From: an uncultured Clostridia bacterium
GTDB lineage: Bacteria; Bacillota; Clostridia; TANB77; CAG-465
DNA: 64,000 nt
Direction: 5' to 3'
Assembly (NCBI GenBank): GCA_944383015.1
Contig: CALWOC010000001.1
Span: forward strand, 62,001-126,000
Both the position numbers and the translations under genes were made by a program. Positions 30,734 to 35,556 of this stretch are shown here, piece by piece; positions within the stretch are counted from its first letter, which is position 1, and every line of letters begins with the position of its first letter. The notes beneath the pieces were generated by a model. That model had not been told where the DNA came from. It made no database searches and saw only the letters and a list, made by a program, of their open reading frames with translations.

Positions 30734-32089
30734 CTATTTAAGATTAAGTACAGTAACACATTCTATATGCTCACTATTTGGAAATAAATCTACAGGGGTG
30801 ATAACATTAGTCTCATAATACTGACTAAGTAATTTTAAATCTCTTGCAAAAGTTGCTGGATTACAGCTAACATACCCAATTTTTTTAGGTCTAAATTTAA
30901 TTATATACTCAATACTTTCTAAGTCTAATCCTTTTCGTGGTGGATCTACAACTATTATATCTGGTTTAATATTTCTTTTTTCAAACTCAACAATTTTATC
31001 TTCTACACTTCCCGCAATATATTCAGCATTACTAACATGATTTAATGTTAAATTCATATTTGCCATCTTAACTGCCTGTTTTTCAATTTCTATTCCATAT
31101 ACTTGTTTTACACTATCACTTAAGAATATTCCTATTGATCCTACTCCACTATATAAATCAAAAAGAATTTCATTTCCCTTTAATTTTAACTTTTCTTTTA
31201 AAATGTTATATAGTACTTCTGCTTGTATTGTATTTACTTGAAAAAAAGATTTTGAGCTAATATAATACCTATATTTTCCAATATAATCTGTAATATATCC
31301 ATTCCCATAAATTATTTTTTCATCTTTTCCAAGTATCTCATTTGTCTTTGATGAATTTAAATTTAAAACTATAGTTTTTATTAAATCATTTTCTTTTAAG
31401 ATATTTACAATTTCTTCCATTCTTACATCTTCAAAAATATCTTTATTATTTATAACTATCACAACCATAATTTCAGATGTATGATATCCTCTTCTAATTA
31501 ATATATGTCTTATATCTCCATTTCCAGTTTGTTCATCATAACCACTAAAACCTTTTAAAAGAAGTAGCTTAAATATTTCTTTAGATAGCTTATCTATCTC
31601 TTCATTTTGAATAAGACATTCTTCATTTTCAACAACCACATGACTTCTTTTGGCATAAAACCCTATCTTACTCTTGCCATCCACAGTCTTTCTTACAGGA
31701 TATTGTGCTTTATTCCTATAATTTAAAGGTATTCCCATACCAACAACATTATCTAAAGATTTATACTCTACCTTTTGTTTGTCTAATGTATTTTTTACTA
31801 TGTCTTTTTTTATCTCTAACTGCCTTTTATAACTTATATGTTGTCCTGAACATCCTCCACATCTTTTATATACACTACAAAAAGGCTCTTGTCTATCTTC
31901 ACTTCTTTTTATTATATTTTCTATTTTTCCAATACAATATGAAGAATTTTCTTTTATTATTTTAGCTAATACCCTCTCTCCTTTTATTGCACCTGGCACA
32001 AAAATAACTTTATTATCCTCTTTTGCAATACCTTCTAAGTTTATACCGTTATCTATGATTTCTAATTCAATTTCATCATTCTTTTTCAA
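30734..32089 (-). CDS. 23S rRNA (uracil-C5)-methyltransferase, RlmD/RlmCD type
   Basis: A 451-residue methyltransferase: N-terminal TRAM domain (residues 1-60), iron-sulfur motif CSVYKRCGGCSGQH near residue 71, SAM-binding DLYSGVGSIGIF near residue 308, and catalytic VSCNPATFARDL near residue 405. It makes 5-methyluridine in 23S rRNA; RlmD, RlmC and TrmA are hard to separate by motifs alone. The start is TTG at 32089 with AAGGTGG seven bases before it. Confidence 0.88.
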   Translation of the reverse strand: MKKNDEIELEIIDNGINLEGIAKEDNKVIFVPGAIKGERVLAKIIKENSSYCIGKIENIIKRSEDRQEPFCSVYKRCGGCSGQHISYKRQLEIKKDIVKNTLDKQKVEYKSLDNVVGMGIPLNYRNKAQYPVRKTVDGKSKIGFYAKRSHVVVENEECLIQNEEIDKLSKEIFKLLLLKGFSGYDEQTGNGDIRHILIRRGYHTSEIMVVIVINNKDIFEDVRMEEIVNILKENDLIKTIVLNLNSSKTNEILGKDEKIIYGNGYITDYIGKYRYYISSKSFFQVNTIQAEVLYNILKEKLKLKGNEILFDLYSGVGSIGIFLSDSVKQVYGIEIEKQAVKMANMNLTLNHVSNAEYIAGSVEDKIVEFEKRNIKPDIIVVDPPRKGLDLESIEYIIKFRPKKIGYVSCNPATFARDLKLLSQYYETNVITPVDLFPNSEHIECVTVLNLK

Positions 32090-32148: not shown

Positions 32149-32223
32149 GAACTAATTGTATCTTTTATATTTTTGTATTTTTATTTTGTAACAAAAAAAT
32201 ATATTTAGAATATAGTATATTAA

Positions 32224-32240
32224 GTTGAGTAAAGCTCAAC
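32224..32240 (+). promoter_or_regulatory. Inverted repeat ahead of the Cys-rich gene pair
   Basis: GTTGAG-N5-CTCAAC (32224-32229 and 32235-32240) stands between an AT-rich promoter-like region and the AAAGGAG of the first small gene. It may be an operator or a short leader hairpin. In the remainder of 32090-32259 I see no clear sigma-A promoter on the plus strand. Confidence 0.4.
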
Positions 32241-32259
32241 AAACAAAGGAGTGAAATGT

Positions 32260-32391
32260 ATGTGCATAGATAGTGATAATCTAGTATGGCTAATAGTCCT
32301 AGTACTTATACTTATTATTCTGTATTTTATATGTCAAGAAAAGAATTCATCTACACCATTAAACTTCGATACTTTTTTTCAAAGTAATTAG
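32260..32391 (+). CDS. Small membrane protein, 43 residues
   Basis: ATG at 32260 follows AAAGGAG and encodes 43 residues with one long hydrophobic helix (WLIVLVLILIILYFI), a Cys near each end of it and a polar tail TPLNFDTFFQSN. I recognise no family. It lies 33 bases before the Cys/Gly-rich gene in the same direction, so the two are probably cotranscribed. It is too short for routine gene callers, but the ribosome binding site and the hydrophobic pattern support it. Confidence 0.6.
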   Translation: MCIDSDNLVWLIVLVLILIILYFICQEKNSSTPLNFDTFFQSN

Positions 32392-32424
32392 AAGTTTATA
32401 TATAACAAAGAGAGGTGAATTTAG

Positions 32425-32583
32425 ATGATGGATGAAAGATGCGGATGTAATAACTGTGGAGGTTGCGGATGTAACGGATGCGGTAATTGCGGATTTGGTG
32501 GTAACGGATTATTCGGAGGCGGAAACTGCTGCTGTATTTGGATAATACTTATCATAATCGTTCTTTGTTGCTGTTGTTGCTAA
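32425..32583 (+). CDS. Cys/Gly-rich small membrane protein, 52 residues
   Basis: Starts ATG ATG at 32425 after AGAGAGGTGAA. The first half is a Gly/Cys/Asn repeat (MMDERCGCNNCGGCGC, then NGCGNCGFGGNG), then LFGGGNCCC, a hydrophobic helix IWIILIIIVL and a terminal run of five Cys. In all 14 of 52 residues are Cys. The design recalls small Gly-rich spore or coat proteins (YjcZ-like) and metal-binding Cys-rich peptides of clostridia, but no family is recognised and no maturation enzyme (radical SAM or other) is nearby. A strong terminator follows. Codons are G+C-richer than usual because of Gly and Cys. Confidence 0.7.
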   Translation: MMDERCGCNNCGGCGCNGCGNCGFGGNGLFGGGNCCCIWIILIIIVLCCCCC

Positions 32584-32598
32584 TTGCACATAATACAT

Positions 32599-32627
32599 AA
32601 AAGTGGAAGATGTTCTCTTCCACTTTT
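32599..32627. terminator. Bidirectional terminator after the Cys-rich gene and uvrA
   Basis: AAAAGTGGAAGA (32599-32610) pairs with 32616-32627; T run on the plus strand, A run (T on the minus) on the other side. It serves the small gene pair and the convergent uvrA. Confidence 0.8.
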
Positions 32628-32629
32628 TT

Positions 32630-35473
32630 CTATTTTTTATTTAAAACTTTTCTTAAAAACTCTCCTGTATAGCTTTCTTCTACTTTTGCTACTTGTTCAG
32701 GTGTACCTTGTGCTACTATTGTTCCACCATTGTCTCCACCTTCTGGTCCTAAATCTACTATATAATCCGCACTTTTAATAACATCCAAATTATGTTCAAT
32801 TACAAGTAATGTATTTCCACCATCTACAAGTCTTTGCAAAATATCTATAAGTTTATGTACATCTGCCATATGAAGACCTGTTGTTGGTTCATCTAGTATA
32901 TACATTGTTTTTCCTGTAGAACGTTTTGATAATTCTGTTGCTAGTTTTATTCTTTGTGCTTCGCCTCCAGAAAGAGTTGTTGATGGTTGACCAATTTTTA
33001 TATATCCAAGCCCTACGTCCATTAAAGTCTGTAGTTTATTTTTTATTGTTGGAATATTTTTAAAAAATTCAAGTCCTTCTTCAACTGTCATGTCTAATAC
33101 ATCACTAATGCTCTTTCCTTTATATTTTACCTCTAGTGTTTCTCTTGAATATCTTTTTCCTTTGCATACTTCACATGGAACATAAACATCAGGTAAAAAG
33201 TTCATTTCAATTTTTATAATTCCATCTCCTGAACATGCTTCACATCTTCCACCTGGAATATTAAAACTAAATCTACCTTTTGCATATCCTCTAAGCTTTG
33301 CTTCATTTGTATTTGCAAATATGTCTCTTATGGCATCAAACATTCCTGTATATGTCGCTGGATTTGACCTTGGAGTTCTTCCAATAGGAGACTGATCAAT
33401 ATTTATAACTTTATCAAAAAACTCAAGTCCTTTTATTTTTTTATATTTACCAGGTCTAGTATATGCTCTATTTAAGTCTCTCTCCATAGTTTTACATATT
33501 ATCTCATTTACAAGCGTAGATTTTCCAGAGCCTGACACTCCTGTAACACAATTAAATACTCCAACAGGTATTTTTACATCAATATCTTTTAAATTATGCT
33601 CCTTTGCTCCCTTTACCTCAAGATATCCAATTTTAGTTTTTCTTCTTTCTTTTGGTACTGGAATTTTAAGTTTTCCACTTAAATATTTTCCAGTAATAGA
33701 TTCCTCACAATTTAATATATCTTTAGGCTTTCCAGCAAATACCACATTTCCTCCATGTACACCTGCACCAGGTCCAATATCTACTATATAGTCTGCTTCG
33801 TTCATTGTATCTTCATCATGTTCAACTACAATTAATGTATTGCCAAGATCTCTCATCTTCTTTAAAGAATTTAAAAGTTTTTCATTATCTTTTTGATGTA
33901 AACCTATACTTGGCTCATCAAGTATATATAATACACCTGTAAGACCAGAGCCAATTTGAGTTGCAAGTCTAATTCTTTGAGATTCTCCTCCAGATAAAGT
34001 TCCTGCACTTCTTGATAAAGTTAAATAACTAAGTCCAACGTCAATTAAAAATTGCAATCTATAATTTAGTTCCTTTACAATTTGTTCTGCAACCATTCTA
34101 TCTTTTTGACTCATCTTTTCATATTCTTTATTTATATAATTTTTTATATCAACTACATTCTTATTACATAATTCATGAATATTAAGTCTTCCTATTGTAA
34201 CTGCTAAAGATTCCTTTTTAAGTCTTGCTCCATCACAATAATCACAATGCGAACTAGACATAAATCCCTCATAAAAGGTCTTCATTCCTTGAGATTTTGT
34301 CTCATTAAATCTCCTTTGTAAAGTATTTACAACTCCTTCAAACTCATCTTCAAAGTCTCTTTGAAATGACTTACCACTGTGAGAAAATTTTATTTTTTCT
34401 CCATTACTACCATATAATAACACTTGCATAAAATTATCTGGCAAATCTTTTAACTTAGTATCTGGATCTACATTATAATGCTTACAAAGTCCTTCAATAT
34501 ACATTCTACTTATACCATCTACTATACTTCCAGCACCGGTCCATCCTTTAATACATCCATAATCAGATAATTTTTTATCTTTATTTGGAATTATTTTATC
34601 TGGATCTATCCTTAAAATCTCTCCAAGACCAGTACAATATGGACAAGCACCAAAAGGACTGTTAAAAGAAAACATTCTTGGTGTAAGCTCTTCTAAACTT
34701 ATACCACAATCAACACAAGCATAGTTTTGTGAAAATACTTGTTCTGTACCATCACTCAAATTTGAAATTATAACTAGATTTTCTGCATATTTTAATGCTA
34801 ATTCAACAGAATCTGCAAGTCTTTTTCTAATATCATCTCTTACTACTAATCTGTCAATAACAATTTCAATATTATGCTTCTTCTGTTTATCTAAAGTAGG
34901 AATTTCTTCTGAGAGATCATAAGTTTCTCCATCAATTCTTGCACGAATGTATCCATCTTTTAAAACTCTTTCTAAAACTTTTTGATGTTCACCTTTTCTT
35001 CCACGAATTACAGGTGTCATTACTAATATCTTTGTTCCTTCTTCATATTCTAAAATTTTATCTACTATTTCATCTACAGTTTGCTTTTTTATTCTTTTTC
35101 CACATTTTGGGCAGTGAGGAATACCAACTCTTGCATATAATAGCCTTAAATAATCATATATTTCAGTTACAGTTCCAACTGTTGAACGTGGATTTTTTGA
35201 TGTAGTCTTTTGATCTATTGAAATTGCAGGAGATAGACCTTCAATAGATTCAACATTTGGTTTTTCCATTATCCCTAAAAATTGTCTAGCATAAGAAGAT
35301 AAAGATTCAACATATCTTCTTTGCCCTTCAGCATATATAGTATCGAAAGCTAAAGATGATTTTCCAGAACCAGAAAGTCCTGTAAATACAACTAATTTAT
35401 CTCTTGGTATTTCAAGATTAATATTTTTTAAATTATTTTCTTTTGCTCCTTTTATTATTAATTTATCATTCAT
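32630..35473 (-). CDS. uvrA: UvrA, nucleotide excision repair
   Basis: A 947-residue damage-sensing ATPase. First Walker [21 protein letters not shown] near residue 32, zinc-finger Cys pairs (CPKCGKR, CVDCG, CPYC), first signature [12 protein letters not shown], second Walker [14 protein letters not shown] near residue 640, third zinc finger CEAC...CEVC near residue 740, second signature [15 protein letters not shown] at 35473 is used because AAGGTGAG precedes it; the open frame runs 39 bases further upstream. UvrB and UvrC are not in the window. Confidence 0.95.
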
Positions 35474-35556
35474 TTTCTCACCTTCAAAATCATAAGTATT
35501 ATACCACAGCATAAATAATTTTACAATCTTTTTTAGAACAAATGTACGTTTTAATA

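Follow-up and report, generated by a model that had tools for sequence, protein, structure and literature searches.

A conserved pair of tiny clostridial genes with a SigK-type promoter probably encodes helix-anchored, cysteine-rich proteins of the spore envelope

Cysteine-rich proteins that self-assemble at the spore surface and become disulfide cross-linked are known in both clostridial and Bacillus spores (PMC7333573). In C. difficile, cdeC and cdeM are driven by SigK (PMC6101409), and CdeC self-assembles and multimerises (PMC7677010, PMC6101409); in B. subtilis, yjcZ belongs to the SigK regulon (PMC517825). Many clostridial spore proteins are still uncharacterised, and proteins of about 50 residues are easily overlooked by annotation and by proteomics. 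Here, we describe two such tiny genes in a 64,000-nucleotide stretch of DNA from an uncultured Clostridia bacterium (the window), and we consider it likely that they encode late mother-cell, helix-anchored, Cys-rich spore-envelope proteins that become disulfide-linked. The locus is laid out as follows:

30734-32089, minus strand: RlmD-type uracil methyltransferase gene, from its Pfam tRNA_U5-meth_tr match
32188-32222, plus strand: SigK-type promoter, with the -35 GTAAC at 32188-32192, a 15-nt spacer and the -10 GAATATAGTATATTA at 32208-32222
32224-32240, plus strand: 5'-leader hairpin GTTGAGT-AAA-GCTCAAC, directly after the -10 region and near the presumed transcription start
32245-32251, plus strand: Shine-Dalgarno sequence AAAGGAG of gene 1, from sequence and relatives
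32260-32391, plus strand: gene 1, a single-helix protein of 43 aa, from the ORF, relatives and codon selection
32410-32417, plus strand: Shine-Dalgarno sequence GAGAGGTG of gene 2, from sequence
32425-32583, plus strand: gene 2, a Cys/Gly/Asn-rich protein of 52 aa, from the ORF, relatives, structure prediction and codon selection
32599-32636, plus strand: intrinsic terminator common to the gene pair and the converging uvrA, from a stem search
32630-35512, minus strand: uvrA, assigned from sequence

Both reading frames were located where the original prediction had placed two tiny plus-strand genes, alone and flanked by an RlmD-type methyltransferase gene and by uvrA, which both lie on the minus strand; the first of these neighbours is borne out by its Pfam match and the second by its sequence. 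The ribosome-binding site claimed ahead of gene 1 is the AAAGGAG listed above, and gene 2 has a good one as well. The terminator said to follow the pair is genuine, a 12-bp stem (32599-32627) with a T tail that is terminator-like in both strand directions, and most relatives have a stem of differing sequence at the same position. At 32584-32598, after the stop codon of gene 2 and ahead of the terminator, lies a short non-coding GCACATAAnTACATAAA-like stretch that is kept genus-wide (same place in L002-L022). Gene 2 has 42% G+C in a window of 26%, owing to its Gly and Cys codons. The window gave no Rfam match to an RNA element.

The gene 1 product, MCIDSDNLVWLIVLVLILIILYFICQEKNSSTPLNFDTFFQSN, starts with MC-x-DSDN, continues into a helix and closes with a C-terminal STPLNFDTFF motif; throughout the window's genus it is almost cysteine-free and is not a high-Cys protein. 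In the gene 2 product, MMDERCGCNNCGGCGCNGCGNCGFGGNGLFGGGNCCCIWIILIIIVLCCCCC, an N-terminal region beginning MDERCGC is followed by FGGGN and the helix CCCIWIILIIIVLCCCCC. A recount gave 15 cysteines among its 52 residues, one more than the 14 first reported: seven in the N-terminal part, then CCC, then CCCCC. AlphaFold predicted a single helix at residues 35-51 (pLDDT about 77), which includes the terminal Cys run, and little besides, with pLDDT below 50 for residues 1-28. At about 17 residues, with cysteines at both ends, this helix is short for a membrane span. Alignment of relatives indicated that E-R-C-G at the start, F-G-G ahead of the helix and the cysteines flanking the helix are invariant, while the Cys/Gly/Asn repeat between these parts varies in length. 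Conservation is highest in the C-terminal hydrophobic helix, and a CxC-rich pattern (CGCGCGC) occurs in nearly all homologues.

Compared by features alone, the pair is like the Cys-rich exosporium proteins CdeC and CdeM of C. difficile in its SigK-type promoter, its cysteine richness and its putative assembly at the spore surface; cdeC and cdeM are reported to be monocistronic, whereas the genes described here are paired. CdeC and CdeM are larger than the gene 2 product, and to our knowledge neither has a CCC-helix-CCCCC design. The CsxA, ExsY and CotY proteins are larger as well and form 2D crystals; we know of no hydrophobic-helix design or tandem tiny genes among them. The Bacillus YjcZ/SscA proteins are very small and, like gene 2, combine a Gly-rich N-terminal part with a hydrophobic segment downstream of it, but we know of none with Cys runs flanking the helix on both sides. 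Neither the window proteins nor their class-wide homologues matched the YjcZ/SscA models of Pfam and NCBIfam (PF09680, TIGR01732) at E up to 10, and a further profile comparison with the YjcZ models gave no match at E up to 1. The principle of CsxA, ExsY and CotY, a Cys-rich protein array locked by disulfides, is the one that we propose here (PMC7333573).

Of the 28 genomes in the genus, 26 have gene 2, with gene 1 adjoining upstream across a short gap, mostly of 23-58 nt; the two that lack it have a completeness of 77% and 88%. In the annotated frame, pN/pS was 0.04 over the C-terminal part of gene 2 vs 3.9 and 0.8 in the other frames (19 distinct sequences), and for gene 1 it was 0.22 vs 0.58 and 4.7 (10 sequences). 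Judged by these substitution patterns, both genes are real and under strong purifying selection in the annotated frame only; chance ORFs were ruled out by this frame-specific selection together with the conservation. Within the family of the window's genome the pair stays together while its 3' neighbour varies (uvrA, dapA and others). Another family of the order has the two-gene layout beside mutL, groEL or obg (neighbours assigned from sequence), with a first gene such as MGNCCNSEILWFIILFLLLFCCGNN... and then MPENRGCGCG...GGDCCIWIII...CCCGNNG..., and the layout recurs throughout the order. The first genes of related families, which are Cys-rich and read ...SEILWFIILFLLLFC..., align with gene 1. 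On this alignment gene 1 is their distant homologue, and it therefore looks like a diverged member that has lost the Cys tail and gained the STPLNFDTFF end.

Looser homologues were recovered by a profile search at class level: 112 of the 391 genomes sampled, in 78 of 222 genera, have them, and those of the loci that we examined often carry two or three tiny genes in tandem array. The original prediction had named a lack of homologues and of a transcript, or of conservation in close relatives, as what would speak against it; homologues are instead widespread, and the pair is conserved. We found no convincing Pfam or NCBIfam match for the window proteins or for their distant and class-wide homologues. 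A scan of genome contigs matched two near-identical MAG loci only. Phage origin was rejected, since tblastn against phages gave no match. Literature searches with sequence motifs of the pair, and with SscA combined with coat terms, returned nothing. The kind of protein, a Cys-rich, SigK-type spore-envelope protein, is already known; the family itself, its tandem tiny-gene layout and its Cys-flanked helix are absent from the family libraries and literature searched. The family is widespread but has no model in Pfam or NCBIfam, and its promoter hints at when it is produced.

Upstream of the pair, GTAAC-N15-GAATATAGTATA fits the layout of mother-cell SigK promoters (AC, 16 bp, [C/A]ATAnnnT). This strict GTAAC promoter was present at 36 of the 47 loci of the order, where dinucleotide shuffles led us to expect about 0.1 in total: 17/24 in the genus, 6/8 at the other loci of its family, 13/14 in another family and 0/1 in a further family. 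The genus loci that lack it mostly read GAATATATT. At the pair, the -10 carries AATA in the window's genus and CATA in related genera (CATACTAT or CATATTAT). In C. difficile, SigE and SigK promoters share a common -10 and differ in the -35, which is ATA for SigE and AC for SigK (PMC3789822). We therefore tested a looser pattern, AC-N15..17-[CA]ATAnn[AGT]T, and found it at all 32 family loci (5.4 expected) and at 14 of 15 related-family loci (2.0 expected), 46/47 for the order; as the patterns were chosen after the sequences had been seen, the controls weigh more than these raw counts. The late mother-cell gene yabG, our positive control, had the looser pattern in 23 of 26 cases (4.2 expected), whereas spoIVA, an early gene of SigE type, had it in 4 of 20 (2.6 expected). 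An ATA-type (CATA-type) -35 pattern occurred in 12 of the 20 spoIVA regions and never at the pair or at yabG. A SigE-type promoter for the pair was rejected, as its pattern is absent there and present at spoIVA. The suggested check for a sigma-E/K promoter has thus turned up one of SigK type, shared with yabG and unlike that of spoIVA in the same genomes.

In the spoIVA upstream regions (L163-L182), the mother-cell -10 of this genus is GAATATATT rather than CATA, as it is at the pair, while yabG keeps CATA; this is lineage-specific drift in part of the promoters. A strict-promoter search of the whole genome that carries the window returned, besides the pair, only a single plausible site, which is bofA-like; a regulon therefore cannot be compiled from this motif. 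That second match (L130; G000:C1:316025-316056, minus strand) lies just ahead of a BofA-like gene, which is followed by a cell-wall-hydrolase-like gene.

A stem at the place of the hairpin after the promoter is kept in most leaders, and its sequence is not fixed. Among 23 distinct leaders, with 20 different arm sequences, the best stem had 6-12 pairs vs shuffle means of 4-7 (combined p = 4e-19, a figure that is overstated since the sequences are related). In a small number of leaders, chiefly from another genus, the stem does not stand out. For B. subtilis aprE, a 5' stem-loop and ribosome binding both matter for mRNA stability, according to work cited in PMC7509114. As described there, the aprE leader resembles that of the pair in having a 5'-end hairpin and then a strong ribosome-binding site; the two differ in that they share no homology and that the stability of the pair's mRNA is a prediction only. 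The analogy suggests that the hairpin is a putative mRNA-stabilising element that would make for a long-lived message.

The genome of the window encodes SpoIVA, YabG and a SigK-like sigma factor whose match is near full-length and scores 264 bits, below the TIGR02846 cut-off of 298.65; SigK-like copies of relatives carry the SRSYVSRIE motif in its Arg form. SpoIIR was looked for in this genome and was not found. Across the class, spoIVA was present in 103 of the 112 homologue-bearing genomes vs 175 of the 279 others (OR 6.8, Fisher p 7e-10, kinship ignored), and six of the nine homologue-bearing genomes without it are less than 90% complete. In G015 spoIVA was not found and in G026 it is broken in the assembly; the pair is intact in both. 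Counting yabG as well, one or the other gene is frameshifted, interrupted by an in-frame stop or missing in G026, G012, G004, G017, G032, G015 and G018, with gene 2 intact; these defects reflect either faulty assembly or sporulation genes in decay.

Together, these comparisons make late mother-cell timing of the pair a well-supported inference. Along with the short helix and with flanks that are of low complexity and rich in thiols, this timing points to the spore envelope. The original prediction had offered spore-coat disulfide cross-linking as one of three options, next to metal binding and a modified peptide; it is favoured because homologues are widespread and because the promoter is of SigK type, shared with yabG and unlike that of spoIVA. 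From these features we infer that the pair depends on SigK, that its products are located in the membrane or coat, that disulfide cross-linking takes place, and that the proteins take part in assembling the envelope or in resistance. The pair would be an operon transcribed by SigK RNA polymerase in the mother cell late in sporulation, probably from a message kept long-lived by its 5'-end hairpin. Both products are tiny, with one short hydrophobic helix each and with Cys/Gly/Asn-rich flanks in gene 2 and in the gene 1 counterparts of other families. The helix may insert in, or pack against, the outer forespore membrane, which is derived from the mother cell, or the nascent coat. On lysis of the mother cell, when the surroundings turn oxidising, the abundant cysteines would be joined by intra- and intermolecular disulfides, and the linked proteins would become an insoluble envelope layer. 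Because gene 1 of the genus is almost without cysteine, a cross-linking role of its own is ruled out here.

The main rival to this spore-envelope reading is metal handling in the developing spore, in which metallothionein-like CxC/CGC clusters at the forespore membrane would bind Zn, Cu or Fe, with the helix serving as an anchor only. The near-universal CGCGCGC of gene 2 homologues would suit it, and a paralogue that shares an operon with a peroxiredoxin gene would fit metal or oxidant control. Against this, the number and spacing of cysteines vary freely among relatives, unlike those of ordered metal clusters, many cysteines sit within the hydrophobic helix, and no metal transporter or metal regulator adjoins the pair; we regard storage of metal as unlikely. 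It is more doubtful that the products are vegetative small membrane proteins under an ordinary or ECF sigma factor, with a GTAAC -35 that resembles SigK by coincidence. GTAACA-N17-TATAGT is readable as a weak sigma-A site (9/12), and ECF -35 boxes also contain AAC, but the -10 of related genera (CATACTAT/CATATTAT) is neither TATAAT nor an ECF CGT box, the AC spacing is that of yabG and unlike that of spoIVA, and homologue presence is associated with spoIVA.

Tiny, hydrophobic single-helix proteins from paired genes with SigK-type timing could also be holin-like late mother-cell membrane peptides, which permeabilise or help to lyse the mother cell and so release the spore; the strong constraint on the Cys/Gly flanks would be needless for pore formation, and the tandem runs of related genes, two or three at a time, look structural, making this quite improbable. 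The modified-peptide option has lost its support and a RiPP or bacteriocin precursor, exported or not, was rejected as highly improbable: the products are small and Cys-rich with a composition somewhat like that of azole-forming precursors, but the most conserved part is the C-terminal hydrophobic helix, the promoter is of SigK type, and, in keeping with the early remark that no maturation enzyme is near, no constant maturase or exporter lies beside the pair in any lineage, its neighbours (rlmD-type, uvrA, dapA, mutL, groEL, obg and similar) changing from one lineage to the next.

The spore-envelope reading could extend further. In three relatives a gene 2 paralogue directly follows a peroxiredoxin gene (L027:825-1632; L028:1480-2200, minus strand; L082:2190-3141), and in two of them the operon has a SigK-type promoter (GTAAC...CATACTATA in L082, CAC...CATAGTATA in L027). 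Joint production of a thiol peroxidase and a thiol-rich protein may point to controlled oxidation. A class-wide family of tandem, tiny, membrane-helix, Cys-rich proteins that build a spore layer by redox chemistry, with a peroxiredoxin from the same SigK-type operon that could promote or restrain disulfide formation in some genomes, is a broader claim that we hold to be rather unlikely; if true, it would mean that strict anaerobes couple the oxidation of a spore layer to an enzyme. The locus raises the question of how anaerobes cross-link thiol-rich spore layers, and the family offers concrete targets for spore proteomics and for knock-outs in cultured relatives. An AgrB-like gene (accessory gene regulator type), assigned by sequence, also adjoins gene 2 paralogues in four relatives (L027:26-652, L029:611-1255, L030:1772-2467 and L082:1353-2015).
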